Shown here piece after piece: positions 1,398-36,532 of a DNA stretch of 64,000 bases. Source of the stretch: Candidatus Tumulicola sp. (lineage in GTDB: Bacteria; Vulcanimicrobiota; Vulcanimicrobiia; Vulcanimicrobiales; Vulcanimicrobiaceae); the NCBI GenBank assembly GCA_036490475.1, contig DASXDT010000006.1, positions 1,426,001 to 1,490,000 of the forward strand. The letters are read 5' to 3'. The notes beneath the pieces were generated by a model. It worked only from the letters and a program-made list of their open reading frames with translations, searched no databases and had not been told where the DNA came from. Made by a program: the position numbers and the translations under genes. Numbering within the stretch: position 1 is the stretch's first letter; every line of letters starts with the position of its first letter.

Positions 1398-2354
1398 TTG
1401 GCGAACATCGATTTCTATAGAAAACACTTCGGGATCACTTCCGTTGGCGCTGCTTTTGACAAGTTCGTCGAAACTTTAGCCAATTATTTCGACGCCAAGT
1501 ACTACGTAGATTGGTCTAAGGTTCTTTCCAACGCAAAACGGCACGAAAAGTCATTCCAGCTGCTCAGTGAACTTTGTGGGAGGGGCGATGTAAAGGTCAA
1601 GGCTGCTGAACTATTTTTCGCGCACCCTGAGACAATCGAAGCTCTGCCAATTCTTATCGCATGTCGGCGAGGGCTTTCAATCTCAGATCCTTTAAACGTT
1701 TCAGCGATGATGACGTATAGCTTTGCACCTAATGGCGCCACCGATGACGAGAAAAGGATCGAAGCCGAACATTACGCGGAGTTCCTGGTTCATTCGGGAC
1801 TAATAGACGTTTTTGCAATGATCCAAAATGCCGCGGATTTTGCGATCGGCGTAGAAGTAGGCCTAGACAGCAACGGCCGAAAGAACCGTGGGGGCAACTG
1901 CGGGATACAAGCTATCGCACCGGTAGTCGAATCGCTGCGCCAAACGATTCCGGGCCTTGTGATTCGCTCTGAAGCTGGATTCGCAGAACTCGAGAGAAAT
2001 GGATTCCGATTGCCTGTCCGATTTGATGGCATCGTCTGGGATCTAGCATTCTGGAAAGAAGACGGTAAGAAACTCGTTGTCGCAGAGGTCAATCACTATG
2101 GAACGAGCGGATCGAAACCTCCCGCGATCGCACGCGAGTATACCGATCGAAGTGAAGATCTTGCTGCCGCGGCTGTAGGTTTCGTGTGGATCACCGACGG
2201 CCTTGGTTGGCTTAGCATGAAGAATCCCTTGAGATTAGCGTTTCAAAACATCGACTATATCGTTAATGTTGAACTGGCGAAAGAGGGTCAACTCGCTGCG
2301 GCCTTACTGTCGTTGTTCGAAAAAAACGTCGAGGGAAATGTAACTTTCTCCTAA
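1398..2354 (+). CDS. DpnII-family type II restriction endonuclease
   Basis: Cleaves unmethylated DNA at a short palindrome; members of this family (DpnII, MboI) typically recognise GATC. The 318-residue protein has the family block GVEVGLDSNGRKNR at residues 151-164. Its active-site region has D210 in 'VRFDGIVWD' and E230/N232 in 'VVAEVNHYG', followed by 'GSKPPAIAREY'. The E-x-N in place of the common E-x-K matches the DpnII group as I know it. The TTG at 1398 is preferred because an in-frame TGA directly precedes it and homology-like sequence starts within the first 20 residues; the ribosome site is weak. It is co-directional with the 75-residue protein and pairs with the divergent methylase. 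Confidence 0.88.
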   Translation: MANIDFYRKHFGITSVGAAFDKFVETLANYFDAKYYVDWSKVLSNAKRHEKSFQLLSELCGRGDVKVKAAELFFAHPETIEALPILIACRRGLSISDPLNVSAMMTYSFAPNGATDDEKRIEAEHYAEFLVHSGLIDVFAMIQNAADFAIGVEVGLDSNGRKNRGGNCGIQAIAPVVESLRQTIPGLVIRSEAGFAELERNGFRLPVRFDGIVWDLAFWKEDGKKLVVAEVNHYGTSGSKPPAIAREYTDRSEDLAAAAVGFVWITDGLGWLSMKNPLRLAFQNIDYIVNVELAKEGQLAAALLSLFEKNVEGNVTFS

Positions 2355-2543
2355 ACATTTGCCCGCCGACGAATGAATTTCGCCAGCCAACCCGCCCCGG
2401 TGACTGCTGTCAGACCATGCGCAATCGGTAGTACTACAGTCGTTGCGGCCGGATGTAGAATAGCCCTGTAATAGTTAGCTTAAAAGTCCGGCGCTCGCTC
2501 CGCGCCGCCCGACCACATCCAGCGCAGGCCTAAGTACGCCGCA

Positions 2544-3572
2544 TTACGTCCCCGGAGATAGCGCGAGGCCGGTCGCGTCTCCGACAGATGCGACGGATCC
2601 AACCATTAGCCGATGATAGTCGAGCCGCATGAGCAGCTGGCAGTTGGTGGACGAAACGTAGAAGCGATCGGCGTCGCGCGGGAATGCGATGCCGTCGACG
2701 ATGTCGAGGAGCGAACTCTCGTCGATCTTGCGCACCGGTTCGGGGGCTCCCGGCGGAAAGATCCCGAGGTACTTCGGCTCGTTATGGTTGAGCGGCTCGT
2801 AGGCCAGCGCGAGATTGCCCTCGCGATCGAATGCTAGCGCGTATGCGGGGAACGAACCAGCGGGTAGGTCGAGCCCGAGATTCGTGCCGGTCGACGATCG
2901 CGGCGCGTATTTCTCGATTTGAATGTATGCCGACGTCAACGAGTACCACGATACGTACAGATTGCCGGAGGCGTCGAGCGCGACGTTGATGGCGGCCATT
3001 CCGGGCAGCGTCAGCGTTTGGCTGGGTACGGTGCTGCCCGATGGGTATTCGGTCACCGTCCCTGCGCCACTCCCGCTGCCGGTGACGTTCGCGATGTACA
3101 CGGTACCGTCGGTACCGACGCCGACGCCGTACGGCACGTTGACGCCGGTGGAATACGTGAGGCTGGGCGCGAGCGTCCCGGGCGCGTAGACCGTGACGGT
3201 GTTGTTGCCGCTGTTGGCGACGTAGAGGTTCCCTGCGGCATCCGTTGCGATCCCTTCGGGCGTAGAAATGCCGCTCGTAATCTCGCCAATCGGTGACTGA
3301 CCTTTGGGCGCGAAGATGTCGACGAAGCCGTTGTCGTAGGCGCCCTGACCGGCGACGTAGACGACGTGTTTGTGTCCCAGCGCTTGCAGCGACAACCACG
3401 CCTCGGGAGCGCGTTTGGCTCGAAGCGAGACTGCGGGTGGGCGGTTTGCTAGCGGATTGAGAGCCGATGCAGATTGCGGCGCTAACGTACTCACGCCGGA
3501 CGTGCAACTTTGCAGCGCGGCGGCCGCGGCGAAGGCCAGCAACGCGCGCGTGGCGGCATGACGGGAGTTCAT
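2544..3572 (-). CDS. Exported NHL-type beta-propeller lipoprotein
   Basis: A 342-residue predicted lipoprotein with an N-terminal hydrophobic stretch and a lipobox ending 'LQSC' near residue 23, so it probably sits on the cell surface or outer membrane. The rest is made of repeats such as 'GIATDAAGNLYVANSGNNTVTVYAPG', the blades of an NHL/SMP-30-like six-bladed propeller. No catalytic residues are recognisable; such folds usually bind ligands or partners. The ATG at 3572 overlaps the stop of the preceding propeller gene by 4 bases (ATGA), and an AGGAGG site is present, so the two genes are co-translated. Substrate unknown. Confidence 0.85.
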   Translation of the reverse strand: MNSRHAATRALLAFAAAAALQSCTSGVSTLAPQSASALNPLANRPPAVSLRAKRAPEAWLSLQALGHKHVVYVAGQGAYDNGFVDIFAPKGQSPIGEITSGISTPEGIATDAAGNLYVANSGNNTVTVYAPGTLAPSLTYSTGVNVPYGVGVGTDGTVYIANVTGSGSGAGTVTEYPSGSTVPSQTLTLPGMAAINVALDASGNLYVSWYSLTSAYIQIEKYAPRSSTGTNLGLDLPAGSFPAYALAFDREGNLALAYEPLNHNEPKYLGIFPPGAPEPVRKIDESSLLDIVDGIAFPRDADRFYVSSTNCQLLMRLDYHRLMVGSVASVGDATGLALSPGT

Positions 3573-4710: not shown

Positions 4711-7481
4711 CCTTTGTTTTGCGCCGGCGCGGGGTGGCGTGCGGCCGGCGAGAAATCACACGACAAGTGGCTCGGACGCCGGTTTTCAATTCGCCGCAGA
4801 ATCCGCCGCACTGCGTGGGTCGCCGCGCGGAACTCGCGCGCGTGCAAGATGCTCTCCACGACGTGGCGCTCGGCACGGGGTCGGCACTGATCTTCGGCGG
4901 CGATCGCGGCGTCGGGAAGTCGCGATTGCTGAGCGAGTGCGCCGCGCTGAAGTCGCCGGTGGCCGCGTTTAGCATGCGCTGCGCGGGCGCCGCGTTGGGC
5001 GAACGCGACCTGCGCGCGCAACTCGCCGGTGCCCTTACCATAACCGGAGCGCGCGCAACGACGCGTTCCGCGGCCGACGTGCTGTCCGGCATAGTAACCA
5101 GAGCCAAGCGTAAGCCGATCGCGCTGCTGGTCGACGACGCGCACGCGGCGAACGCCGGCGAACTGCGGCTGATCGACGGTCTGCTCGCGCTGACACAGCG
5201 GCATCGGCTCGTGGTCGTCGCCTGCGTGTTCGATCCCTCGGTCGAGGGCGCGCCGTTCGGCTGGGGGGCCGATCGCTGGCGGCGTGCGGGCGTGGAGTAC
5301 CACTCACTCGACCCGCTCGGTGACGCCGATGTTGAACTGCTGATTCGCAGCGTGGGGCAACGGTGCGCGCATCCGCTTGGCAACGAAGATCTCCGCGAGA
5401 TGATGCGGGCGGCGCAAGGCAATCCGCGTTTGGCGATCGAGTTCGCAGGCAGCCCGCCGCAGTCACGCGGCCTTCCGCTGGTTGCGGCGAGCGCGCGGGC
5501 CGAGGTCGCGTCCATTCGTCACAGTATGTCGCCGAGTGAGTTCGATACGCTCTTGGCGTGCAGCGTACTCGGCGAGTCGTTCTCCGACGCTGCCATCGCG
5601 CCGGTCGCCGGACGTTCGTGCGACGCAGTCGCCGACGCGCTGCAACACGCATGCGCGCTGGGCGTGCTGATCGAGGATCCGGGCGATCGCGGGCGGCTCT
5701 GCTTTCGCCACGCGGCGTTGCGTAACGTGTTGTACGCGTCGCTCGTATCGCTCAAGCGGCGGATTCTGCATGAGCGTGCGATTCAGCACTCGATCGCTGC
5801 CGGTGGCGACGCACAATCGCTTGGCCGGCACTGGGAAGTCCTCGGCGATCGCGAACGCGCCGCGGAGTGTTTCAGCCGCGCCGCCGACGAGCAGTTCGCG
5901 GTTGCGGCGTTCGCGCCGGCCGCGGATCTCTACGAACGAGCCGCAATGCATTTGCCGGTTGGATCGAATGAGTGGGTGCGGGCGCAACGGTTCTTCGTGA
6001 GCAGCTGCAACGGCCTGGGCGACTGGGAACGCATGTTGCCGGTGCTCGCGTCGGTGTTGGTGGCGATCGATCGCGCCGGCGATCCCGAGAGCGCAATCGA
6101 GTTCCTCTGGCACCTCTTTCTGGCGCAACTCAACAACGGTGATCTTGCGGCTGCCGAACGCGCCTCCGAAAAGTTGGCGGCGATTAATTCGCCCGCCGCG
6201 CGCGCACATGCGCAAAACGCGGTGCTGACGCTGGCCTATGGGCTTTGCTATCGCGGACAGCTCACCGCAGCGGCGCGGCTCGCCGACTCCGTCGATCCCG
6301 CCGAACTCGTCAGCGACGAGGCGCGCATTCGGTACGCGATTACGCGCGCCGAGATCGGCGCGCTGCGCATTCCGCTCGAGCGATCCCTCGAACGAATTGA
6401 GGAAGCCGTGACGATCGCTACGGCATTGGCCGTGCGCGGCACGGTGCTCTGCTACCGGGTCGGTGCGGAGATCGCCGAGCGATTCGGCGATTTGCCAAAA
6501 GCGCGGGAGTACGTCGATCGTGCTACCGCATTCGTTTCGAGCCGTACCGGCACGATCGACGACTCGCGTCTGGGCATCGCCATGGAGTTGATGCGCATCT
6601 GCTTACTCTCGGGCGATTTGCCCGCGGCGCGAGACTTGCTGCAGTCGACGAACGGCCGGCGCAAATCGGGCCGGCACAACGAGGCCTTTTACGCCGGAAT
6701 AGGCGTGGCGATCGGCATGTGCGTCGGCGACCTGGCGTTAGTCGACGCGTTCTTCAACCCCGACTTGCTGTTCGCGTCGGCCGCGGCCGGTGACGCCGAA
6801 TCGTGCGGTCTGCTGCTGCCGGGTTTTGCCGAGGTGATGCGCGCGCATGGGATGATCAAGGAACTGGCGGCTGTGTTAGAGCGCTGCGTCGACGCCGAAC
6901 TGATCGACCCGCATGCGGCGGTGCAGCTGCACGCGGTTCGGTTTGCCGGTTTAGAATGCGCCAAACGCGCCGCCGAGCAGACGCAACGGCACTTTCGCGA
7001 CGCGGTCGCGCCGGCGGCGGCGGCCCACATCGCGCTCTGTAACGCAACCCTGCTGCGGCGCTGCCGCAGCCATACGCGGGCGGCCGAGGCGGCGCGCGAC
7101 GCCGCGGCGCGCTACGGGCATATGGGGTGGCGCCTGCATGAAGCGGCGGCGCTCGAACTCGCCGGTGATTCGAGCGGCGCCCGCCACGCGTACGAGCAGT
7201 GCGGCGCGATCCGAGACGCCGCGCGTTTGGCCGCCGGCCAGACGCGTAAGAGCCGGCGTGCGCCATTCGGTGCGCACCTGACGGCTCGCGAGGCCGACAT
7301 CGTGCGCCTCATCGTGCGCAAGCGTTCCAATCCCGAGATCGCTCGAGCGCTAGAGATCAGCTTGCGCACCGTGCAGCATCACGTCGAGGCGGCCTTCAGC
7401 AAACTCGGCATCCGCGCGCGTTGGCAATTAACTGCGGAGCTGCTCGAAGCGTCCGGCATTGCAGAGTCACGCCACGCCTAA
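4704..7481 (+). CDS. Large ATP-binding LuxR-type (LAL/MalT-like) transcriptional regulator
   Basis: A 925-residue cytoplasmic one-component regulator. An AAA-type NTPase domain near the N-terminus has a Walker A (GDRGVGKSR, residues 66-74) and a Walker B (LLVDDAH, residues 141-147). A long alpha-helical, TPR-like middle follows, and a LuxR-type DNA-binding domain forms the last 70 residues ('LTAREADIVRLI', 'NPEIARALEISLRTVQHHV'). This architecture fits LAL regulators, which bind ATP and an inducer before activating promoters. It diverges from a two-gene propeller operon and is followed by a third propeller gene on the same strand. It resembles the regulator at 27271-29910. The inducer is unknown. 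Confidence 0.9.
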   Translation: MPTFVLRRRGVACGRREITRQVARTPVFNSPQNPPHCVGRRAELARVQDALHDVALGTGSALIFGGDRGVGKSRLLSECAALKSPVAAFSMRCAGAALGERDLRAQLAGALTITGARATTRSAADVLSGIVTRAKRKPIALLVDDAHAANAGELRLIDGLLALTQRHRLVVVACVFDPSVEGAPFGWGADRWRRAGVEYHSLDPLGDADVELLIRSVGQRCAHPLGNEDLREMMRAAQGNPRLAIEFAGSPPQSRGLPLVAASARAEVASIRHSMSPSEFDTLLACSVLGESFSDAAIAPVAGRSCDAVADALQHACALGVLIEDPGDRGRLCFRHAALRNVLYASLVSLKRRILHERAIQHSIAAGGDAQSLGRHWEVLGDRERAAECFSRAADEQFAVAAFAPAADLYERAAMHLPVGSNEWVRAQRFFVSSCNGLGDWERMLPVLASVLVAIDRAGDPESAIEFLWHLFLAQLNNGDLAAAERASEKLAAINSPAARAHAQNAVLTLAYGLCYRGQLTAAARLADSVDPAELVSDEARIRYAITRAEIGALRIPLERSLERIEEAVTIATALAVRGTVLCYRVGAEIAERFGDLPKAREYVDRATAFVSSRTGTIDDSRLGIAMELMRICLLSGDLPAARDLLQSTNGRRKSGRHNEAFYAGIGVAIGMCVGDLALVDAFFNPDLLFASAAAGDAESCGLLLPGFAEVMRAHGMIKELAAVLERCVDAELIDPHAAVQLHAVRFAGLECAKRAAEQTQRHFRDAVAPAAAAHIALCNATLLRRCRSHTRAAEAARDAAARYGHMGWRLHEAAALELAGDSSGARHAYEQCGAIRDAARLAAGQTRKSRRAPFGAHLTAREADIVRLIVRKRSNPEIARALEISLRTVQHHVEAAFSKLGIRARWQLTAELLEASGIAESRHA

Positions 7482-24521: not shown

Positions 24522-24924
24522 CGATTTCTAATTCTTGAGCCCCGTTCCAAAGTGTGAGGCGCCCAAGCTCGCTCAGTTTTTCCATCCCTTGCGTGATGGT
24601 CATGAAGTGATTGCCTGCAAGTTGCCCCAGTTTGCTGGCAAAGTGAACGCCGCCGTACGGGAGGAGCAGCTCCGCTTCGCTGTGTCCTCCCGGGTAATAG
24701 ATGAGTTGTCCAGGCGCCGGATAGCTGGTCGCATTTTCAAACGGAAGGTGCGACGCGAGATCGCCGAGTGGTATCCAACAGCCCTCACCGCTCCAACGAC
24801 AGTGTATGATGTGCTGTCGAAGCGGAAGTAAGGACGCGAAGAACTCGCACGTCTTCGGCGCTGCTGCATTTTCAAATCGCGCGGAAAACGTAAATGGCCC
24901 GGCCTTGATTGTAACCGCGTTCAT
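24505..24924 (-). CDS. DUF3830-family (cyclophilin-like) protein
   Basis: A 139-residue protein that starts 'MNAVTIKAGPFTFSARFE' and carries 'PLRQHIIHCRWSGEGCWIPL' and 'PAPGQLIYYPGGHSEAELLLPYGG'. The 'WSGE' and 'PGQLIYYPGG' blocks match the DUF3830 group with its cyclophilin-like beta-barrel, as I recall it. The biochemical role of the family is unclear. The ATG at 24924 overlaps the stop of the upstream hydrolase gene by 4 bases, so it is the second gene of that operon. Confidence 0.7.
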   Translation of the reverse strand: MNAVTIKAGPFTFSARFENAAAPKTCEFFASLLPLRQHIIHCRWSGEGCWIPLGDLASHLPFENATSYPAPGQLIYYPGGHSEAELLLPYGGVHFASKLGQLAGNHFMTITQGMEKLSELGRLTLWNGAQELEIVTASL

Positions 24925-26096
24925 CGAGCAAAGCCACGTTGGCGCAGCCAGGTGAGCATGACGGCGGGATAGCCGCGAGTGTATCGCACCGGCTTCGTAT
25001 CGTCGAAGCCGTTCGACGTCACCTTCATCGTGTGTCCTGCGTCTGCAAACCAGCGAACGGTAAGATCGTGCATGCCGGCTCGTCGAAACGCGACTTCGAT
25101 CGCCGGAACGTCGTGCGTGACATCGACCTTCGTGTCGCGCGCGCCATACAGCGCGAGGGTCGGCGCGCGAACCGTCGCCAGCGTCTCTGCGGGATCGTAG
25201 CGTAAGAACCGTCGCCATCCGCTCAACTGCGGCTCCTCGAACGCCGTTTTTACGGGAACCAGCGGGAGCAGCGAATCATCGAACCAACTCGCGCGTGCTG
25301 CCTTCGCGTACGCCGTCTTTGCCGTTGGGATGGGCGTGCGCCCTTCGATTGCTGCGAGCACGATCTGCCAGGTTTCGACGGCGCGTTGGGTGTCCGCTGC
25401 AGTATGACCGATGCCGCGCATCGTCTCTTTCGCTTCGTAGATAACGTTTTGCTCGACGCTCGACGCTGGCGCGCTCTGAAGGATCATAAACGCGATCGGG
25501 CGGTCTACGGCTACAATCGGCGCCGTCCACCCGCCATTGCTGAAACCCCAGATGCCGATGCGTTGTGGATCGACGCGCGGATCGGTACGGAGCGCATCAT
25601 AGATCGCGTTGGCATCGCGCGCTCTCTGCGGTGGTCCGTTCGCTAGCCAATTGCCGCTCGATTCGCCGGTGCCGCGCTGATCGTAACTGATAACGTTGAC
25701 GCCGTTACACGCGAAGTACGGTACGATCCAACCCATCTCGCGCGTTTCTGCGTCGCTTCCGTGAATCAGCAAGATCGTGCTGCGAGGAGCGGCGCCATGG
25801 TAGTACAGGGAAACTCCGAGGACGCCGAGCGGCGAGCGAACGACGCGCCGTTCTTCTTGCACGGCGCAGACGCTCACGAGGTGCCGGTCCGGCGGCAATG
25901 CACCGCTCGTCCCAGACGAGGCGTTCAAATATTGTGAGTACGCGGAATCCGGGAGCTCGTGTTCGGTCCCGACGTACAACTTCGCGCCCGTTGCGTTCAG
26001 ATACAGGCCGGGGGCGAGCGAGGCGGCGTCGACCGCGAGTGGCGATGCGACGAATAGGAGGAAGGCCAGTGTCGCGGTGAGCGGCTCTCGTTTCAC
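24921..26096 (-). CDS. Exported alpha/beta-hydrolase
   Basis: A 391-residue protein with the signal peptide 'LTATLAFLLFVASPLAVDA'. Its hydrolase domain has 'ILLIHGSDAETREMG' at the oxyanion strand, 'SYDQRGTGESSGN', the nucleophile serine in 'GIWGFSNGGWTAP', the aspartate near 'ALYGARDTKVD' and the histidine in 'FADAGHTMK'. All triad positions are present. It is likely an esterase or peptidase; the substrate is unknown. The GTG at 26096 is chosen because the signal peptide begins there. It shares an operon with a DUF3830 gene. Confidence 0.85.
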   Translation of the reverse strand: MKREPLTATLAFLLFVASPLAVDAASLAPGLYLNATGAKLYVGTEHELPDSAYSQYLNASSGTSGALPPDRHLVSVCAVQEERRVVRSPLGVLGVSLYYHGAAPRSTILLIHGSDAETREMGWIVPYFACNGVNVISYDQRGTGESSGNWLANGPPQRARDANAIYDALRTDPRVDPQRIGIWGFSNGGWTAPIVAVDRPIAFMILQSAPASSVEQNVIYEAKETMRGIGHTAADTQRAVETWQIVLAAIEGRTPIPTAKTAYAKAARASWFDDSLLPLVPVKTAFEEPQLSGWRRFLRYDPAETLATVRAPTLALYGARDTKVDVTHDVPAIEVAFRRAGMHDLTVRWFADAGHTMKVTSNGFDDTKPVRYTRGYPAVMLTWLRQRGFAR

Positions 26097-26108
26097 AACT
26101 ATTCTAGA

Positions 26109-26143
26109 GGAGCGCGACGCCGTATGTTTCGACGTCGCGCCCC
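26109..26143 (-). terminator. Strong hairpin between a propeller gene and the hydrolase operon
   Basis: GGAGCGCGACG and CGTCGCGCCCC pair over 11 positions with one mismatch around a 13-base loop. It follows the stop of the propeller gene at 26171 on the minus strand and precedes the hydrolase start at 26096. There is no clean U-tract, so it may stabilise a 3' end rather than terminate by itself. Confidence 0.5.
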
Positions 26144-26170
26144 TAAAACGCGGAGCCCTGGGGCGAGAAG

Positions 26171-27208
26171 CTACTGACCCGCGGGCGGCGGATCTACTGC
26201 TGGGACGAGTAGCGTCCAACCGCTTTGGTTGTCGATGCCGGATGTGAACTCCGTGACCAGCTTGCCCTGCGGATACGTGTACTCTTTAATCGCCGCGGGA
26301 TTGTTGTTGACGTAGCAGACCAGTTCGGTAAAGAGCGTTCCGACGTAGATGCGGTCCTTCTTGGCATTCAGCCCCGGTCCGACCCACTCGTCGCAACTCG
26401 GGTTGCCGGTGATCACCGATGACGGTGACGTGGCACCTTTCTTAAACGTGTCGATCTTGGCTGGCAGATTGTAACCGGTAATACCCTGCTCGGTCACGAT
26501 GATGGTGTCGTCTTTCAGCACTAAGATGCCACCCGGGGACGTTCCAAGCGTGATTCCGAGGCTCGTGGGTGTCGTCGATCCATGCACGAACTCGTCGACC
26601 GCACCGCCCGGCCCGCTCTTTGCCTGATACGCAAAGAACACGTTGTGATGCTGGTCGACTGCGACCCAGCCACAACAGCTGCCGTTAGTGTCGGTCAGCG
26701 TCGACGTCGGCGTGTTGCTTCCGGGCGCGAAAACCAAAATTTCGCCGTGTCCCTCATTTTCGTCGGTCGCGTAGACGGTGCCGTCACCGTCGATCGCGAC
26801 TCCAACCGGAATGTGCGTGACACCGGTCAGCGTTCGGAACGGCGTCGACGCTCCAGGCTTGTACACGTACAGGCTGGGACCCGAGCCGGCGGTATTCAGA
26901 GCAACCCACAGATTGCCGTCGCCATCGACATGGACGGAGTTTGGACCGTACGGCGCAGTGCTGATCTCTCTCAACAGCGCATGTTTTTTGTTTGCCGAGA
27001 CGACTTCGACGGCGTTACGGTACCAGTTCGCAACGTAGACGACCGAGGCTCCGCTCCCGTTTGGAATCGACATCGCGGATTGCTGCACTGGAATCATCGG
27101 CGAAGTTTGCTGCGACCCGCCGGAGCAGCCGCCGACGAGCGCCGCCGTGGCGCAGGCGAGAAGCGGGACAAGCAAGCTCCGAATCGAGAGCGGTCGACCA
27201 GGGTTCAT
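26171..27208 (-). CDS. Exported NHL-type beta-propeller lipoprotein
   Basis: A 345-residue lipoprotein with the lipobox 'LVGGC' and blades such as 'VHVDGDGNLWVALN' and 'VAIDGDGTVYATDENEG', each followed by a 'VYKPG' or 'VFAPG' strand. The ATG at 27208 has GGGAGG seven bases upstream; the longer frame lacks a signal peptide. It diverges, across 62 bases, from the large LuxR-type regulator at 27271, repeating the arrangement at 3.6-7.5 kb. Ligand unknown. Confidence 0.85.
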   Translation of the reverse strand: MNPGRPLSIRSLLVPLLACATAALVGGCSGGSQQTSPMIPVQQSAMSIPNGSGASVVYVANWYRNAVEVVSANKKHALLREISTAPYGPNSVHVDGDGNLWVALNTAGSGPSLYVYKPGASTPFRTLTGVTHIPVGVAIDGDGTVYATDENEGHGEILVFAPGSNTPTSTLTDTNGSCCGWVAVDQHHNVFFAYQAKSGPGGAVDEFVHGSTTPTSLGITLGTSPGGILVLKDDTIIVTEQGITGYNLPAKIDTFKKGATSPSSVITGNPSCDEWVGPGLNAKKDRIYVGTLFTELVCYVNNNPAAIKEYTYPQGKLVTEFTSGIDNQSGWTLLVPAVDPPPAGQ

Positions 27209-29910: not shown

Positions 29911-30031
29911 ACTGTTACAAGGGAGAACTCACCGGAAAAGCCGGCGGCGCACAGCGCCCAGCCCTCGGCACGCCGGCCGCACGCGCTTGCGATACGATGA
30001 CGCCACGACAGCTTCACAAAGGATGTGTCAT

Positions 30032-30547
30032 ATGATGAGATACCCGCTCGCGCTCGGCGCATTGCTGAGCATTGCTCTTCTCACCAGTGCCGAGGCGGCT
30101 CCGACGCCCGCACCCGGGGGAGCCAACCAAGTGAGCGCGTTGTCGGGCAAGATCGGTCAGACGGTGTTCAACGGTAATCTGCGCATCAAGATCGTCGAAC
30201 TACGCGCGGCAACGGCATCAGATAGCCAAGGAATCGAGTATCCACCGACTCCCACCGCCGCCCAGAACACGATGTACATGCGGGTTTTGCTGAATAACGG
30301 CACGCACGACGTTTGGGGCGGGATCGTAACGTACACGCTTGCCGATAAGGATGCCATCAGCGTCGAGATCCCAACGAATTCGGTCGTAAAACCATCGCTA
30401 CGCATCTTACAAGGAGCCGCTGCCCGCCAAACTGCGTTGTTCCTCGTCGATAAGGATTTCGTTCCAACCAAATTGATCGTCGACTGCTCTACCTGTGCCT
30501 CGAATGCCGGCTTCCGGCCAATCCGCTTCACCATCAGCCCTTCCTAA
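30032..30547 (+). CDS. Small secreted protein of unknown function
   Basis: A 171-residue protein with the signal peptide 'MMRYPLALGALLSIALLTSAEA'. The mature part has 'GKIGQTVFNGNLRIKIVELR' and 'NTMYMRVLLNNGTHDVW', the pattern of a DUF4352-like or telokin-like Ig fold, but the match is loose. An AAAGGATG site is upstream of the ATG at 30032. It is convergent with the 887-residue secreted protein, and their 3' ends overlap by 4 bases. Confidence 0.65.
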   Translation: MMRYPLALGALLSIALLTSAEAAPTPAPGGANQVSALSGKIGQTVFNGNLRIKIVELRAATASDSQGIEYPPTPTAAQNTMYMRVLLNNGTHDVWGGIVTYTLADKDAISVEIPTNSVVKPSLRILQGAAARQTALFLVDKDFVPTKLIVDCSTCASNAGFRPIRFTISPS

Positions 30548-33207
30548 TTTCGAGTTGTGGATGGGAGCGTTGGGTGCGGTTCGACAGAGCCGGTTGGGCT
30601 GACCAAGGCGCCCGCGTAGCGGCGAATTCCTTCGCCGAAGCTCGGTATGCCCGAGTCGAGTCCAATATATTCCGGCATGCCGAGGGTGTACGATCCGAGC
30701 ACTGCGGTGCCGTTTGATAGTAGCATCCAATCCGACGAGAACTGACCCGCTACGATCGAGAGGTCAATAGATTGCGGTTGCTCCAAAACAAACCATGCGA
30801 CACCCGGAGAGCGCGACATCCTGCGTATGTCTGTTGCGGGCGATCCGGAAACAACGTTAGGCCAGTTGTCGAAATCGTCGACGGCATCCTCATCCGCGTA
30901 TTGGTAGTCCTGTAAACTCCGCCACGGATACGCCATGACGCGCAGTTCGGGGCGTGCCAATGCGCGTCGTATCCAAGCGATTCGAGCCAATCTCGTGCCA
31001 AGCGCGATCGACGCTGCAAGTGTTGCCGGTATATCACGTTTCGTCACGTTCACCGGGCATCGAAACTGAACCCAAACACTGCTGTTCCAGCCCGGCGACG
31101 AAAGCATTCCGACAACGCTGTTCGCGTCCTGATCGTACACGAGGTTCTCGAGCCGATAACCCTGCGCCACCGCGTACCGCCGAAGTACGGGAGCCAGTAT
31201 CGCTGCAGGCGGCAACTCGGCTGGGTGGCCCGAATATTGATAGAGCTTCTGTCGTATGTCGGTACCATATTGCTGCGGCAAGATGCTTCCATCAAGCCGG
31301 GTTAGATTCGGATCCGATCGCTTGGTTATCGACGCTAAGGCGACGCCGATGTCCGGATCGTAGCTCGTCCATGGGACGCCGGTCGAGGTAATGCTCCAGG
31401 GAATCATGTACGCCAGATGTGAGTCCGAGGTGAGTTTCAGTATAGCGCCGCTCGCGTATGTAATAGTAACCTCGGTGCTGCCATTGAAGCCGTCTTCGAG
31501 GACGACGCCATCCGGTGAGTTGTTGTAGTCTTCCAAGAACGATGTTAGGTTGTGGGCGTCACGGCAGCGTTGCTCGAACAGAGCCGATGCCTGTCGCGAC
31601 GATGCATATGCACCGAGCTGCTGACTCGTGATCCGATCGCATTCGCGAAGTAGCGTAACCGACTCGGCGCTAGACGTAGAGGCCAGCGGCGAGAACGACG
31701 CGCTGTATATAGCGTCTAGAAGTCGAGATAGCGCAGCGGTGAATAGCGGATGGTCGTTCGCCTGGAAGTCGCTCGCTTCGAGGACCGTCTTTGTGGGACT
31801 TCCATTCCCGCGAGACTCGATCGTTATCGAAGAAACGTCAGCCACCCGTTCGCGCGCCGGCAGGCTTGCGATCGGGCCGATTAAAACCCCGTCGGCGCTG
31901 AACAATGCCGCGACTTTTCGATACCAACCGGTGCCTCCGAGACGCGACTCGTCAAGGCCGGCCGCCGACATCAATGGCCCAGGGTTGTATGCAACGAGAA
32001 TCAGTCGCTTGTCGGGTAGTAGCACCCAGGTCGAGCTGCCGTCGACATCGCCTTGTTTGGCCGGCTCGATCCAAAAAACGATACCCGAAGTTCGCGCGAG
32101 CGGCAGCAAAGGTGCAAGATCGGCTCTACTGTTTGCCAGCTCCGAAAGCTGCCCGATGTCTTGAGATGCGAAATCGTCGCCGACAATCTGTACTTGCAAC
32201 TGCGGCCGAAGAGAGATCGCTCGAACCCATGGAAGCGCGGCCAGCTTATCGGCTCGCTCGATCGGGGTGGCCAAACAGTTGGCCGCCGATGTCGCGTCGG
32301 TGGGTTCTGGGCAATCGAAAGCAACAGTAATTCCGCCCCATCGTGGCGATCCGATCTCGCCGACGATCCGTGAACCGCTCAGTTCGCTCCATTTCGCGAA
32401 CACGTTTGCAGACGCCATTGCGTTTTGAAGCGGCTCGTTGCGGACGACCGGGGCGGGAGTAGGCATGGAGGCAGGCGGTTCCACCCGTAAAGTCTCCGCA
32501 TATTCGGCAGCCAGAAAGGTAGGGCGCAGCCGGTCTGCGTTTACATCGTTGTTGCCGAAGAGTGCCAGGATGCTCTTGGCGATCGCCGTGTCGTAGACGA
32601 GAGTTTGCGATGACGGGTCCACGACTCGCCAAGGTAACATGAACGCATTTTGGGATTTCGAAATGGCGGATATGGTATGACCGTCGTCAAATTTGACAAC
32701 GATCGCTTCCTGTGGATAGTCGTCCGTGTGAAAGCTACGATTGCTGGGCGACAGGTATTCCGAAACGAAGGTATTTGCACCAGCTTTACACGTCGACAGC
32801 GCCGCGGCGCCGAATGCCTTGTCTCGCATTTGGGCAGCAAACTGATAGTTCAAGGCCGAGCTGCAGTGGTCTATCACGTACGTCGCCAAATCTGCTATTT
32901 GGGCTTTGGGTACGTGGCTCGCTCTGCTCCTAAGGGCATCGAGTAAGGTCGAAACCCTCGCACTATCGATTGCCTCGCGATCAAGAATAAACCCGGTTCG
33001 CGAGCGGTGGATCCTGCCCACGTACCGTTCACCCTTCGCCATGCCACCATGACTCGAGTCCAGACTAATGCTCACGATGTGGGCGGTCGTTTCTGAAGCC
33101 GCTTGACGCGACGTCATAACCGGTTGACTTTGAGAATACGCCGTCGCAATGCTAAATACGAGCGCGACGATAAGCCCCATCCAACAAAGCCTCCTTACTC
33201 TCGTCAT
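30544..33207 (-). CDS. Large secreted protein with two similar halves, function unknown
   Basis: An 887-residue protein with an N-terminal signal peptide ('WMGLIVALVFSIATAYS'). I do not recognise a family. The N- and C-terminal halves look like an internal duplication: 'AFMLPWRV' matches 'AYMIPWSI', 'IGSPRWGGITVAFDCP' matches 'LSSPGWNSSVWVQFRCP', 'LPWVRAISLRPQLQVQ' matches 'IAWIRRALARPELRVM', and 'GWYRKVAALFSADG' matches 'GIRRYAGALVSPTG'. Each half is about 400 residues. It is probably an extracytoplasmic structural or binding protein. An internal ATG at 33180 has a perfect AAGGAGG but would remove the basic start of the signal. It diverges from a beta-helix lipoprotein. Confidence 0.75.
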   Translation of the reverse strand: MTRVRRLCWMGLIVALVFSIATAYSQSQPVMTSRQAASETTAHIVSISLDSSHGGMAKGERYVGRIHRSRTGFILDREAIDSARVSTLLDALRSRASHVPKAQIADLATYVIDHCSSALNYQFAAQMRDKAFGAAALSTCKAGANTFVSEYLSPSNRSFHTDDYPQEAIVVKFDDGHTISAISKSQNAFMLPWRVVDPSSQTLVYDTAIAKSILALFGNNDVNADRLRPTFLAAEYAETLRVEPPASMPTPAPVVRNEPLQNAMASANVFAKWSELSGSRIVGEIGSPRWGGITVAFDCPEPTDATSAANCLATPIERADKLAALPWVRAISLRPQLQVQIVGDDFASQDIGQLSELANSRADLAPLLPLARTSGIVFWIEPAKQGDVDGSSTWVLLPDKRLILVAYNPGPLMSAAGLDESRLGGTGWYRKVAALFSADGVLIGPIASLPARERVADVSSITIESRGNGSPTKTVLEASDFQANDHPLFTAALSRLLDAIYSASFSPLASTSSAESVTLLRECDRITSQQLGAYASSRQASALFEQRCRDAHNLTSFLEDYNNSPDGVVLEDGFNGSTEVTITYASGAILKLTSDSHLAYMIPWSITSTGVPWTSYDPDIGVALASITKRSDPNLTRLDGSILPQQYGTDIRQKLYQYSGHPAELPPAAILAPVLRRYAVAQGYRLENLVYDQDANSVVGMLSSPGWNSSVWVQFRCPVNVTKRDIPATLAASIALGTRLARIAWIRRALARPELRVMAYPWRSLQDYQYADEDAVDDFDNWPNVVSGSPATDIRRMSRSPGVAWFVLEQPQSIDLSIVAGQFSSDWMLLSNGTAVLGSYTLGMPEYIGLDSGIPSFGEGIRRYAGALVSPTGSVEPHPTLPSTTRN

Positions 33208-33277
33208 TCGGTACCTAAACGTGTACTCCGGCTATTCGGGCGCACGAATCGTTCGATGCGACGGAGAAGACGGCAGT

Positions 33278-34432
33278 ATGCACTTTTCTTGCCGTGCGTT
33301 GCGACGCCTGGGGGTTGTTCTAACCATTTACGCGACGGCCGCACTGCTGGGCTGCGGGATCTCACCGCAGCCGGACGCTATGCCGCGGGTCGCAGCGATG
33401 CGCCCGCCGCTGGTTTCGTCTGGGACCACGCTGATCATCAGCAACCAGCATCACCGAACGTACAGACATCTCTCGATCAGCACGCTGGCTGGAAACTGTA
33501 TCGACGTTGAAGACTCCACCGACATTACGATCGAAGCGTCGCAAATCGGACCGTGCGGCGGTAACGGCATTAGCATTAGCGGTGGGCGGAACCTTCGGAT
33601 TATCGACAGCTACGTTCACCCCGAAACTCAGAGCACTGGTTGTTGCGATCATAACGATAGTATCTTCGTAGCAGATGCGACGGCCGTTACGATTCAGGGA
33701 AACGTCCTCGCGTACGGCGAGTCCAACGTAGAAGCCGGTCAGCATACAAAGCAGCTCGTCGTTATCGGCAACTTCCTGTTGAATCCGCGTGGGCCGTATC
33801 CTCGGGGTCAAAACGTGCAAGCATGGGGCGCGAGCGATGTGATAGCGGACGAAAACTACACGCTCAGCAGCACGGATACGAAACGGTACAAGTACCCTGA
33901 CGATCAGGAAGACTCGATCAATTTTGGCGTCGGCTCGAGTTTCGTTGCAAAAGACAACTACATCACAGGCGGCCACAGCGCGAGTGATTGCGGTCTCATC
34001 GCCGACGACGGAGCGAACGGCGCATCGTTCGTGCGCAATCAACTCGTCGACACGGGCGGTTGCGGGATCGGCATTGCAAGCGGAACCCAACAACTCGTTA
34101 GAGACAACCAGATCATCAACCGCACGCCCGTACCGGGTGCCGGGAATACTGCGCTGTACGTCTGGAGTCAGTATAAGGGCGTCGACTGCGGGCCGGTGAG
34201 CGTGATCGGCAACGTCGCGACGGAGTTGCGGAAGGACGGCACGCAATCCGGATACTGGAATGGCGGCGGCTGCTCGCCGGTCACCTCGAAGCACAATGTG
34301 TGGAACGAACGGGCGATGCGATTGCTGACACCGCCCGACAAGAAGCTTCCACCGCCAACGATTCCGCCGAAGCCCAGCCGGTGCGTGATCGAGTCGCCGT
34401 ATTCAAACCAGACCAAGTGGCCGGCTTGCTAG
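33278..34432 (+). CDS. Right-handed beta-helix lipoprotein
   Basis: A 384-residue lipoprotein with the signal 'LGVVLTIYATAALLGC'. The mature part alternates short strands with Asn- and Gly-rich turns ('NCIDVEDSTDITIEASQIG', 'GGNGISISGGRNLRIIDS', 'FVRNQLVDTGGCGIGIASG'), the pattern of parallel beta-helix proteins such as pectate lyases and polysaccharide-binding proteins. No catalytic residues can be assigned. The ATG at 33278 is chosen for the signal peptide. It diverges from the two-half secreted protein; both are extracellular, so they may act on the same polymer. Confidence 0.75.
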   Translation: MHFSCRALRRLGVVLTIYATAALLGCGISPQPDAMPRVAAMRPPLVSSGTTLIISNQHHRTYRHLSISTLAGNCIDVEDSTDITIEASQIGPCGGNGISISGGRNLRIIDSYVHPETQSTGCCDHNDSIFVADATAVTIQGNVLAYGESNVEAGQHTKQLVVIGNFLLNPRGPYPRGQNVQAWGASDVIADENYTLSSTDTKRYKYPDDQEDSINFGVGSSFVAKDNYITGGHSASDCGLIADDGANGASFVRNQLVDTGGCGIGIASGTQQLVRDNQIINRTPVPGAGNTALYVWSQYKGVDCGPVSVIGNVATELRKDGTQSGYWNGGGCSPVTSKHNVWNERAMRLLTPPDKKLPPPTIPPKPSRCVIESPYSNQTKWPAC

Positions 34433-34672: not shown

Positions 34673-36448
34673 TCACGCTCCTCCTGGGGCCAACGAACCT
34701 CCGTCGAGGAGTGGCTTGAGAAATGCGCCGTCGTTGACGCCGACTTCGGATGCAATAAGGTCGTTCAGTAATTGGTTCATGCGCAGAATCGTTTCGCGAT
34801 GTTTCTCCGGCGCAAGGACCAGGTTGTGAACCTCGTGAGGATCGGTGTGAAGGTCGAAGAGTTGCGCGTCGTTGTTCTTGAGAATTTCCTCGAGTGTCGT
34901 CGGCGTATTGAAGGCCGTCGGCGCGTAGAAGCGGCCGAACTTGTAGCGTCCGTCGAAGGCAAACGAAACCAGTCCACGTTTCGTCATGCCCGCCTTTGCA
35001 ATTGGGGGCTGCTTCGTGGAGTCGAGCATTTGCGATTCCATTACTGTCTTCAAATATTCGGCATCGACCGTTCCAAGACCGAGATAATTGTACAGCACGC
35101 CCTTGCGCACTTGGTGGACGCTTGCCGAATCCGCATTCGTCAGCAGACTTGAGAAGTCACGTCCCGGGAAACCCTCGATCGCCTGCGCCCGCTTTTCTTC
35201 GGGTAAACCAGTAAGCCCCACGAATGTTGGCACTAAATCTAGGTGACTCGTGAGGGCCACGCACTTCGCACCGCTTTCGCCCGTTGGATGGGCGATAAAC
35301 ATCGGCACGTGAGCGTTTTGCTCGTAAATAAACGGCCCTTTCCCTTTAAGGCCGCCGTGCGAGCCACCCATTTCGCCGTGATCGGCTGTAAATATCACGA
35401 CCGTGTCGCGCCACAAATCCATTTCGTCGCAAACGTCGACGATCTGCTTGACGCTACGTTCGTTATCCTGAATCGTGTTCAAATAGTAGTTGTAGAAAAT
35501 CGTCCACATGTCTTTACGGTCGGTAGGAATCGTGCCGGACCAACCGTCCCAGCCCTTCTTATATTCCGCGATCGCCGCGGGGGTACCGGGCGCACTCAAC
35601 GATTCAGAAAGGCTCGGCGCCAACGTCAACGGCCATTTCTTTTCGTAGATAGTGTTCGGCGGCGGAGGCGGTATGGCGGCCGCCGTCACAGCCTTTTGGA
35701 CCGGCGGTTCTCCGGGAACGTTGGCATCGCCGTACATGATGTCGTGCGGGTTGACGAAGCCGGCAACCATGAAGAATGGCTCGCGGTGCTTGCGTGACTG
35801 CAAGGCCGCATTGCGTAGCCAGCGCACGCTCTCACCAGCAATGAACGAATCGTTTTCAAAGCCGCTCAGGGGAGCGCTACCAATGTCCCCGCCGGCGCTG
35901 AAAGCGTCGAAGCCGTATGGCTGGGCAACCGTGCTATAGTTCACCGTTGGTTCGGGGTCCAATATGTTCTTGTCCATCTCGAACTTACCAAAATAGGCGG
36001 TCTTGTAGCCGAGATTTTTAAGGATCGAGCCCATGTTGGGGATAGCCGGGTTAAGCGTTGGAACGAAATCGAACTGCATTTGATCGATGACGTGGTGGTA
36101 CTGCGGAGGCCGCCCCGTGAGGAAGGTCGCGCGTGACGGCGAGCACTGTGCCGATGCGATGTAGTGATTGGTAAACGAAACGCCATTGCGCGCGATTCTG
36201 TCGGTGCCTTGGAGCTTGTAGTCGGGTCCGCCGAGGAGTTGGTGGGTTTGCTGGTCGACGATAATAAAGATGATATTATAAGGCGGTTTGCCCGCCGGCC
36301 CTTTTCGGACGTGACGTTCTTCGCTCGATTGTGCGGACGGCGATGCCTCCGCGACGCTGGGCAGTCCGAGCGCGGCCGCGGCCAGAGTCGACGCTCCAAC
36401 CAAAAGATCGCGACGATTCACCGTAGCTTTTGATTCCGACTCCTTCAC
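34673..36448 (-). CDS. Tat-exported sulfatase family hydrolase
   Basis: A 591-residue type I sulfatase-like enzyme. A twin-arginine signal ('NRRDLLVGASTLAAAALG') precedes the catalytic domain. The sulfatase signature has C102 in 'AQCSPSRATFLTGRPP', the cysteine converted to formylglycine, and 'IIVDQQTH', 'VIFTADHGEMGGSHGG' and 'KGPFIYEQNAHVP' hold the metal- and sulfate-binding residues. It should cleave sulfate esters outside the cytoplasm. I chose the GTG at 36448, which has AAGGAG eight bases upstream. No formylglycine-generating enzyme is encoded in this window. An 84-base gap separates it from the upstream membrane-protein gene. Confidence 0.88.
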   Translation of the reverse strand: MKESESKATVNRRDLLVGASTLAAAALGLPSVAEASPSAQSSEERHVRKGPAGKPPYNIIFIIVDQQTHQLLGGPDYKLQGTDRIARNGVSFTNHYIASAQCSPSRATFLTGRPPQYHHVIDQMQFDFVPTLNPAIPNMGSILKNLGYKTAYFGKFEMDKNILDPEPTVNYSTVAQPYGFDAFSAGGDIGSAPLSGFENDSFIAGESVRWLRNAALQSRKHREPFFMVAGFVNPHDIMYGDANVPGEPPVQKAVTAAAIPPPPPNTIYEKKWPLTLAPSLSESLSAPGTPAAIAEYKKGWDGWSGTIPTDRKDMWTIFYNYYLNTIQDNERSVKQIVDVCDEMDLWRDTVVIFTADHGEMGGSHGGLKGKGPFIYEQNAHVPMFIAHPTGESGAKCVALTSHLDLVPTFVGLTGLPEEKRAQAIEGFPGRDFSSLLTNADSASVHQVRKGVLYNYLGLGTVDAEYLKTVMESQMLDSTKQPPIAKAGMTKRGLVSFAFDGRYKFGRFYAPTAFNTPTTLEEILKNNDAQLFDLHTDPHEVHNLVLAPEKHRETILRMNQLLNDLIASEVGVNDGAFLKPLLDGGSLAPGGA

Positions 36449-36532
36449 CTGCGAAGCTCCTTTCGATACTGTGCGGCGACAGCGTCCCCGATGAGACGCT
36501 TGACCGTTCGGCAGCACAAGCTATCCCCCTCG

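Follow-up and report, generated by a model that had tools for sequence, protein, structure and literature searches.

What protein is encoded by the open reading frame (ORF) at 30544-33207, reverse strand, in a 64,000-nucleotide stretch of a Candidatus Tumulicola sp. genome (contig DASXDT010000006.1, assembly GCA_036490475.1; the whole stretch is called the window below)? An initial annotation had described it as an unrecognised secreted protein built from two similar 400-residue halves that, with a divergently transcribed beta-helix lipoprotein, may serve an extracellular polymer. The ORF is as stated there, with 887 codons before the stop, and is present in one copy in its own genome, an assembly of 3.32 Mb in 7 contigs that is 95.9% complete. 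Here we find that the protein consists of two units of one two-module family, an assignment that we regard as practically certain for both architecture and membership. Among the sequences searched, the family of this unit, which is unnamed, has so far been found only in Candidatus Eremiobacterota. Our best explanation of the whole, put forward tentatively, is a binding protein with two heads, non-enzymatic and probably secreted, that arose by tandem duplication of this phylum-restricted unit.

The relationship between the two halves is evident from direct comparison. BLASTP of one half against the other aligned residues 37-450 with 451-882 at 72.0 bits (E = 5e-18), with 103 of 444 positions identical (23%). 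The Smith-Waterman score of the halves was 222, far above that of 500 shuffled sequences (mean 39.6, standard deviation 5.9, maximum 73), and the proposed similarity of two ~400-residue halves is thereby upheld. As a query against a set made up of the C half and 31 further window ORFs, the N half reached 72.0 bits with its counterpart; the runner-up scored 21.9 bits (E = 1.4). Both halves match the family profile, of which they are themselves rows, over the whole model (3.9e-183 and 2.1e-180). The matching blocks that had been noticed between the halves are real, but the similarity is continuous from end to end and not confined to five isolated blocks. Three cysteines occupy matching columns of the two units (residues 115/523, 140/548 and 299/717), an arrangement that would suit an oxidising compartment.

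Each unit of ~410 residues comprises an N-module (~190 residues) followed by a C-module (~200 residues). In the N-module, an initial strand pair and helix are separated by a variable helical insert from an acidic-proline segment, which in unit 1 reads TDDYP; a second strand pair comes next, and then S-x-S-x(4)-M-L-P, Y-D/N-P, a helix and N-x(3)-L. The C-module is marked by W-V/I-R and S-x-W-x-L-L/P; all these signatures are majority patterns that not every aligned row fits. The invariant columns are S143 and P152 in the N-module and W75, S140, W142, L152, D167 and G188 in the C-module. The two modules show no detectable kinship to each other by hhalign (0.3%). A structural model and one misplaced alignment row had raised the idea that the N-module is internally symmetric, with a strand pair and a helix occurring two times over; this was likewise not supported when the first part of the module was aligned with the second (hhalign 0.2%).

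The unit occurs singly in relatives of the window protein. With the single window protein as query, 3 of 98 genomes gave a match, its own included. Profile A1, whose rows are the two window halves, L003 and L002, matched, within the taxonomic family, 8 of 99 genomes including the protein's own, corresponding to single-copy relatives in 7 of 98 others; its matches include genomes G121 (2.0e-60), G123 (2.7e-56), G120 (1.7e-22), G037 (7.4e-11) and G122 (1.4e-5). A complete single unit is present in four relatives (G048, G121, G123 and G037), shorter genes are found in G120 (three, all divergent) and G122 (one), and G051 keeps the N-module while its C-module alignment ends within the frame. Only the window protein, among those found, has two units. 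The single-unit proteins (L005, L007, L008 and L010) share with it the N-module, the C-module and a hydrophobic N-terminal segment, but have one unit in place of two and are 19-20% identical to its N half. The layout, said before to belong to no known family, is indeed absent from the libraries searched, but it amounts to one duplicated unit that these relatives carry alone.

Beyond the taxonomic family, profile A2 matched 11 of 149 genomes in a phylum sample, the three additional ones all belonging to f13, a family of another class. The f13 matches (2.5e-6, 1.9e-5 and 2.3e-7) cover part of the N-module only. A profile-profile comparison of the f13 modules (A3) with A2 aligned 129 columns at a probability of 97.8 (E = 1.1e-12), identifying them as the same N-module; they differ from that of the window protein in having no C-module found, no signal-like segment and no long helical insert between the module's two parts. 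In one f13 gene (L023:1258-2490, the same gene as L032:3342-4574) ankyrin repeats (Pfam E = 5e-25) come after the N-module and no export signal is present; in the other two (L024/L030 and L025/L031) the module stands alone. In these two loci the small N-module ORF (L024:1114-1704; L025:1198-1686) is convergent to an ORF on the opposite strand (1686-2999 and 1684-3006, respectively) that by reading of the sequence is GFA-like plus ankyrin, echoing the L023 fusion. The C-module was confidently matched only alongside an N-module, at six places in five genomes, all rows of its profile; nine further C-module matches in eight genomes (E = 0.003-0.1) and profile A7 matches in G032, G134 and G140 (E = 0.02-0.08) were discarded as noise.

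Two scans of genome contigs recovered no homologue beyond the phylum, a result limited by the search patterns, so that absence elsewhere is not proved. In the first scan five stretches matched a pattern and none was confirmed; in the second 158 matched and three were confirmed, two from Candidatus Eremiobacterota and one from 'Bacterium isolate SZAS-1 EREM-KAN-1'. Within the limits set by patterns or pairwise sensitivity, no homologue was found among viral contigs, nor on plasmids for the window protein, L006 or L024; L023 gave one weak 40-residue plasmid match outside its module. The family is new but otherwise an ordinary, lineage-restricted one, and duplication followed by fusion is itself an ordinary event.

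The duplication is well supported, and its timing is left undated by trees that partly conflict and have very long branches. The whole-unit tree pairs the two window halves as sisters (84/90, not starred); a topology that joins the N half with L006 instead is not rejected (p-AU 0.104, approximately unbiased test). In the N-module tree the first window module groups with L006 (95/92), and a constraint that keeps the window's two modules as a pair is rejected (p-AU 0.025).

Sequence libraries bear out that the protein is unrecognised. The window protein has no match in Pfam at E<=1, hence none to Beta_helix or Emfourin, none in NCBIfam at E<=5 and none in PADLOC at E<=1; PHROGs gave a single match (E = 0.19), and the top match among PDB sequences had E = 0.069. 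Profiles of the family, of each module and of the f13 modules found nothing among PDB sequences better than E = 0.35. At the level of PubMed Central listings on Eremiobacterota genomes we found no description of the unit family. The family thus lacks a usable entry in the libraries searched, and very few members of its phylum are in culture; we offer its module boundaries, conserved positions and relatives for structural and genetic study.

Export of the window protein, also proposed earlier, is likely: its N-terminal segment (MTRVRR, a hydrophobic core, then AYS) reaches a maximum mean Kyte-Doolittle value of 2.68 over 12 residues and reads as a signal peptide, with the cleavage point placed by eye and not by a predictor. 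The start codon is uncertain. The ATG at 33207 gives the better signal-peptide n-region, and the true start may be Met10, 27 bases further in; by eye, AAGGAGG lies inside the first codons (33180-33207), just before the second in-frame ATG. A hydrophobic N-terminal segment (mean of at least 2.0 over 12 residues) is present in 9 of the 10 genes of f1, the window's own taxonomic family, with the window gene among them; the three f13 genes show none, L023 having a prefix too short to score. It looks as though the same domain serves in two compartments: it is exported in the taxonomic family of the window, and in another class it lacks an export signal and is joined to ankyrin repeats.

Selection was estimated on two pairs of relatives, neither of them a doubled-form orthologue of the window protein. 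L007 and L008 differ by 0.084 nonsynonymous (dN) and 0.326 synonymous (dS) substitutions per site (dN/dS of ~0.26, NG86 method), and L024 and L025 by dN 0.244 and a near-saturated dS of 1.78 (dN/dS 0.14). Both ratios are low: in these pairs the family is evolving under constraint.

The conserved positions of the unit are chiefly Ser, Pro, Gly, Trp and hydrophobic residues, among which no catalytic set stands out. Because of this composition and of the lack of an enzyme match, the unit is predicted to be a non-enzymatic binding domain, a role that we consider possible while holding real doubt. The two-unit protein would have arisen when one two-module unit was duplicated in tandem (or fused), the unit would act as a binding domain outside the cytoplasm, in the periplasm or at the surface, and the two heads could provide avidity or engage two ligands. 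Several observations weigh against this account. D122 of the N-module is nearly invariant and D167 of the C-module invariant, which leaves room for a catalytic or metal site built on these aspartates. The relatives' neighbourhoods revealed neither a ligand or partner nor a neighbour in common, so the lack of an enzyme signature is all that the binding role rests on. Prediction of unit 1 from a two-row alignment (its sister unit only) reached a predicted local distance difference test score (pLDDT) of 42 with just a hint of secondary structure, giving no confident model of the C-module. Profile A1 did not find the family in G001, the only other species of the genus examined. L006 has no N-terminal hydrophobic segment in frame and its C-module ceases to align in that frame, so some family copies may be decaying.

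A compact model was obtained for the N-module of the f13 relative L030 (pLDDT 78.7, predicted template modelling score 0.77), with L031, L032 and pieces from the window in the input alignment. Strands at residues 8-17, 22-31, 34-37 and 40-42 precede a helix at 44-55, and strands at 73-80, 85-90, 99-102 and 105-108 precede helices at 110-119 and 127-130; in this fairly confident model, strand pairs alternate with two helices. Foldseek found no match to the model at E<=0.001 in the PDB, and none of the matches among viral structures reached that threshold. With VIA-align the best structural match was Mago nashi/Magoh (Z 5.0-5.8 in eight rows; PDB 1p27 and 1oo0), at best Z 5.8 over 107 residues at 3.7 Å, a weak score obtained on the model of a relative. 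Mago nashi/Magoh is a eukaryotic exon-junction protein with 8% identity to the model, and its Z lies below the 8 that the tool trusts. We claim no fold kinship, because a Z below 8 may reflect a mere common arrangement. The next matches, weak as well, were sermetstatin (SSI-type, 4hx3; Z 3.7, 89 residues at 4.1 Å) and emfourin (PF20242, 6zyg; Z 3.7, 80 residues at 4.7 Å); emfourin was at rank 39 of the Foldseek list (E = 0.37). DUF6438 (PF20033) resembles the N-module by eye in its succession of strand pair, helix, acidic-proline segment and strand pair. Kinship to either family was tried at the sequence level and rejected. The hhalign probability was at most 0.7% against emfourin and DUF6438 sequences (thin alignment) and below 1% against DUF6438 sequences of the phylum (thin alignments, Neff 1.8-1.9). 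The Emfourin Pfam model matched neither the window protein (E<=1) nor ten relatives including the ankyrin fusion (E<=10), and the DUF6438 model matched neither the window protein nor the ten relatives.

These matches raise the question of whether the protein is a two-headed protease inhibitor, with inhibitory heads doubled by the duplication, its N-module working like emfourin, an inhibitor of M4 metallopeptidases, or like the SSI-type inhibitors, and aimed at exported proteases or those of competitors. According to the parts of PMC9505478 that we consulted, emfourin shares an operon with protealysin and forms a 1:1 complex with it at the region of the active site; the authors suggest an immunity role. 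In favour, both inhibitors are among the structural matches; the model can be read as having the same order of elements, a strand pair then a helix, twice; and three relatives have peptidase-type genes nearby, at most a few genes away (L037, L043 and L038, the last with an adjoining TAP-like hydrolase). But a Z of 3.7 is within the range of unrelated folds and is surpassed by Mago nashi, which is no inhibitor, and sequence comparison gives no support. Peptidase genes are moreover common, differ from locus to locus and are mostly not adjacent, and we give the association little weight. We regard the inhibitor explanation as unlikely. Bolder still, and to us very improbable, would be that the unit founds a new phylum-restricted class of proteinaceous inhibitors with an emfourin- or SSI-like fold, in single-headed exported, cytoplasmic ankyrin-fused and two-headed exported forms.

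Three further explanations are each improbable in our judgement. Sparse, quickly diverging and variously fused domains are common in interbacterial conflict, and a protein with an immunity-like or toxin-neutralising role, which one class exports and another joins to ankyrin repeats, would fit the presence of the family in 11 of 149 genomes, the fusion in L023/L032 with the convergent ankyrin ORFs of L024 and L025, and the three divergent genes of G120. But by eye no toxin gene was noticed adjacent, and PADLOC yields nothing for the module; its sole matches are ankyrin-type models that fall in the repeats of L032. The polymer role supposed earlier, in which the protein would bind, modify or export a polysaccharide together with the divergent beta-helix lipoprotein, draws on that neighbour, which is a beta-helix protein as had been said, on a sulfatase at 34673-36517 (Pfam) and on a beta-1,3-glucanase-like gene that adjoins the family gene in L039. 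At the Pfam and NCBIfam thresholds given above, the window protein matches no model for a carbohydrate-active or carbohydrate-binding family. Of the 41 genomes searched, the 40 others contain no match to the Beta_helix gene at E<=1e-20, Pfam finds neither Beta_helix nor an M4 peptidase in 20 neighbour proteins of relatives, and no polymer gene is common to their neighbourhoods. Because the Beta_helix gene was not found elsewhere at that threshold and the relatives' neighbourhoods (gene calls by a crude script) differ from one another, the polymer link has no comparative support. A lineage-specific gene of little or no function, drifting since its duplication, would account for the sparse distribution, the absence from the genus mate G001, the loss of the C-module in L006 and the shortened copies of G120 and G122. 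It is at odds with 887 codons that stay open, with two units that retain the family signature despite deep divergence and with the constraint measured in the two pairs of relatives. The two-headed binding protein is the explanation that we retain, at the tentative strength given at the outset.

Coordinates of the modules and of the flanking genes in the window are collected in Table 1.

Table 1. Features of the two-unit gene and its neighbours (window positions)
Feature	Position	Strand	Basis and remarks
Two-unit, probably secreted protein	30544..33207	-	887 aa; ORF list, self-alignment, start context
Signal-peptide-like segment	33130..33207	-	Residues 1-26
Unit 1 N-module	32473..33084	-	Residues 42-245; alignments A1, A2, A4; profile match in own genome (G000) 5.3e-58, the sequence itself being a profile row
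Unit 1 C-module	31852..32451	-	Residues 253-452; alignment A5 and C-module profile search, the sequence itself being a profile row
Unit 2 N-module	31252..31845	-	Residues 455-652; alignments A1, A2, A4 and profile search
Unit 2 C-module	30547..31209	-	Residues 667-887; alignment A5 and C-module profile search
Divergent neighbour, Beta_helix protein	33149..34432	+	Pfam PF13229, E 5.4e-9; not shown to share a system
Convergent neighbour, small secreted-looking protein	29987..30547	+	186 aa; stop codons overlap; not shown to share a system

The flanking genes and the wider genome yielded several observations of their own. In the Beta_helix protein a lipobox-like LLGC is seen by eye after an internal Met. 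The small convergent protein has homologues in 14 of the 40 other genomes; the best, that of G017, is 77% identical, with a DNA identity of 81% that ends within a few bases of the stop codon, and the gene is possibly mobile or strongly conserved. Synteny with G017 was considered through this gene and rejected, as it is the only substantial match and the G017 neighbourhood is otherwise unrelated. A serine-peptidase-like hydrolase is encoded in the window at 24924-26219, more than 4 kb from the two-unit gene. The genome also encodes, at G000:C6:1117422-1117766 (L033), a DUF6438 protein above the curated cut-off. L035/L076 (G089:C237:273-512) weakly matches both DUF6438 (7.0e-5) and Emfourin (1.0e-4), and by these sequence matches the two Pfam families may be related to each other. 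We found no PubMed Central paper that mentions DUF6438, nor one on Eremiobacterota with a signal peptide and a domain of unknown function.

Near the relatives, Pfam identifies an M17 aminopeptidase and a serpin (L037:931-3617), an M3 peptidase (L043:1-1590) and a TAP-like hydrolase (L038:7484-8998). In G120, the family gene on contig 9 (L044:4912-7056) comes after a pair of ORFs with a common DEYFGRLK motif, and the products of the pair resemble secreted paralogues. In two genera, represented by G037 (L041:5589-6878) and G120 (L043, ~5000-5520), family genes encoding very different proteins occupy the same place between lepA, assigned by reading of the sequence, and rdgB/HAM1, confirmed by Pfam as Ham1 in L041; no other position was seen to recur among the relatives.

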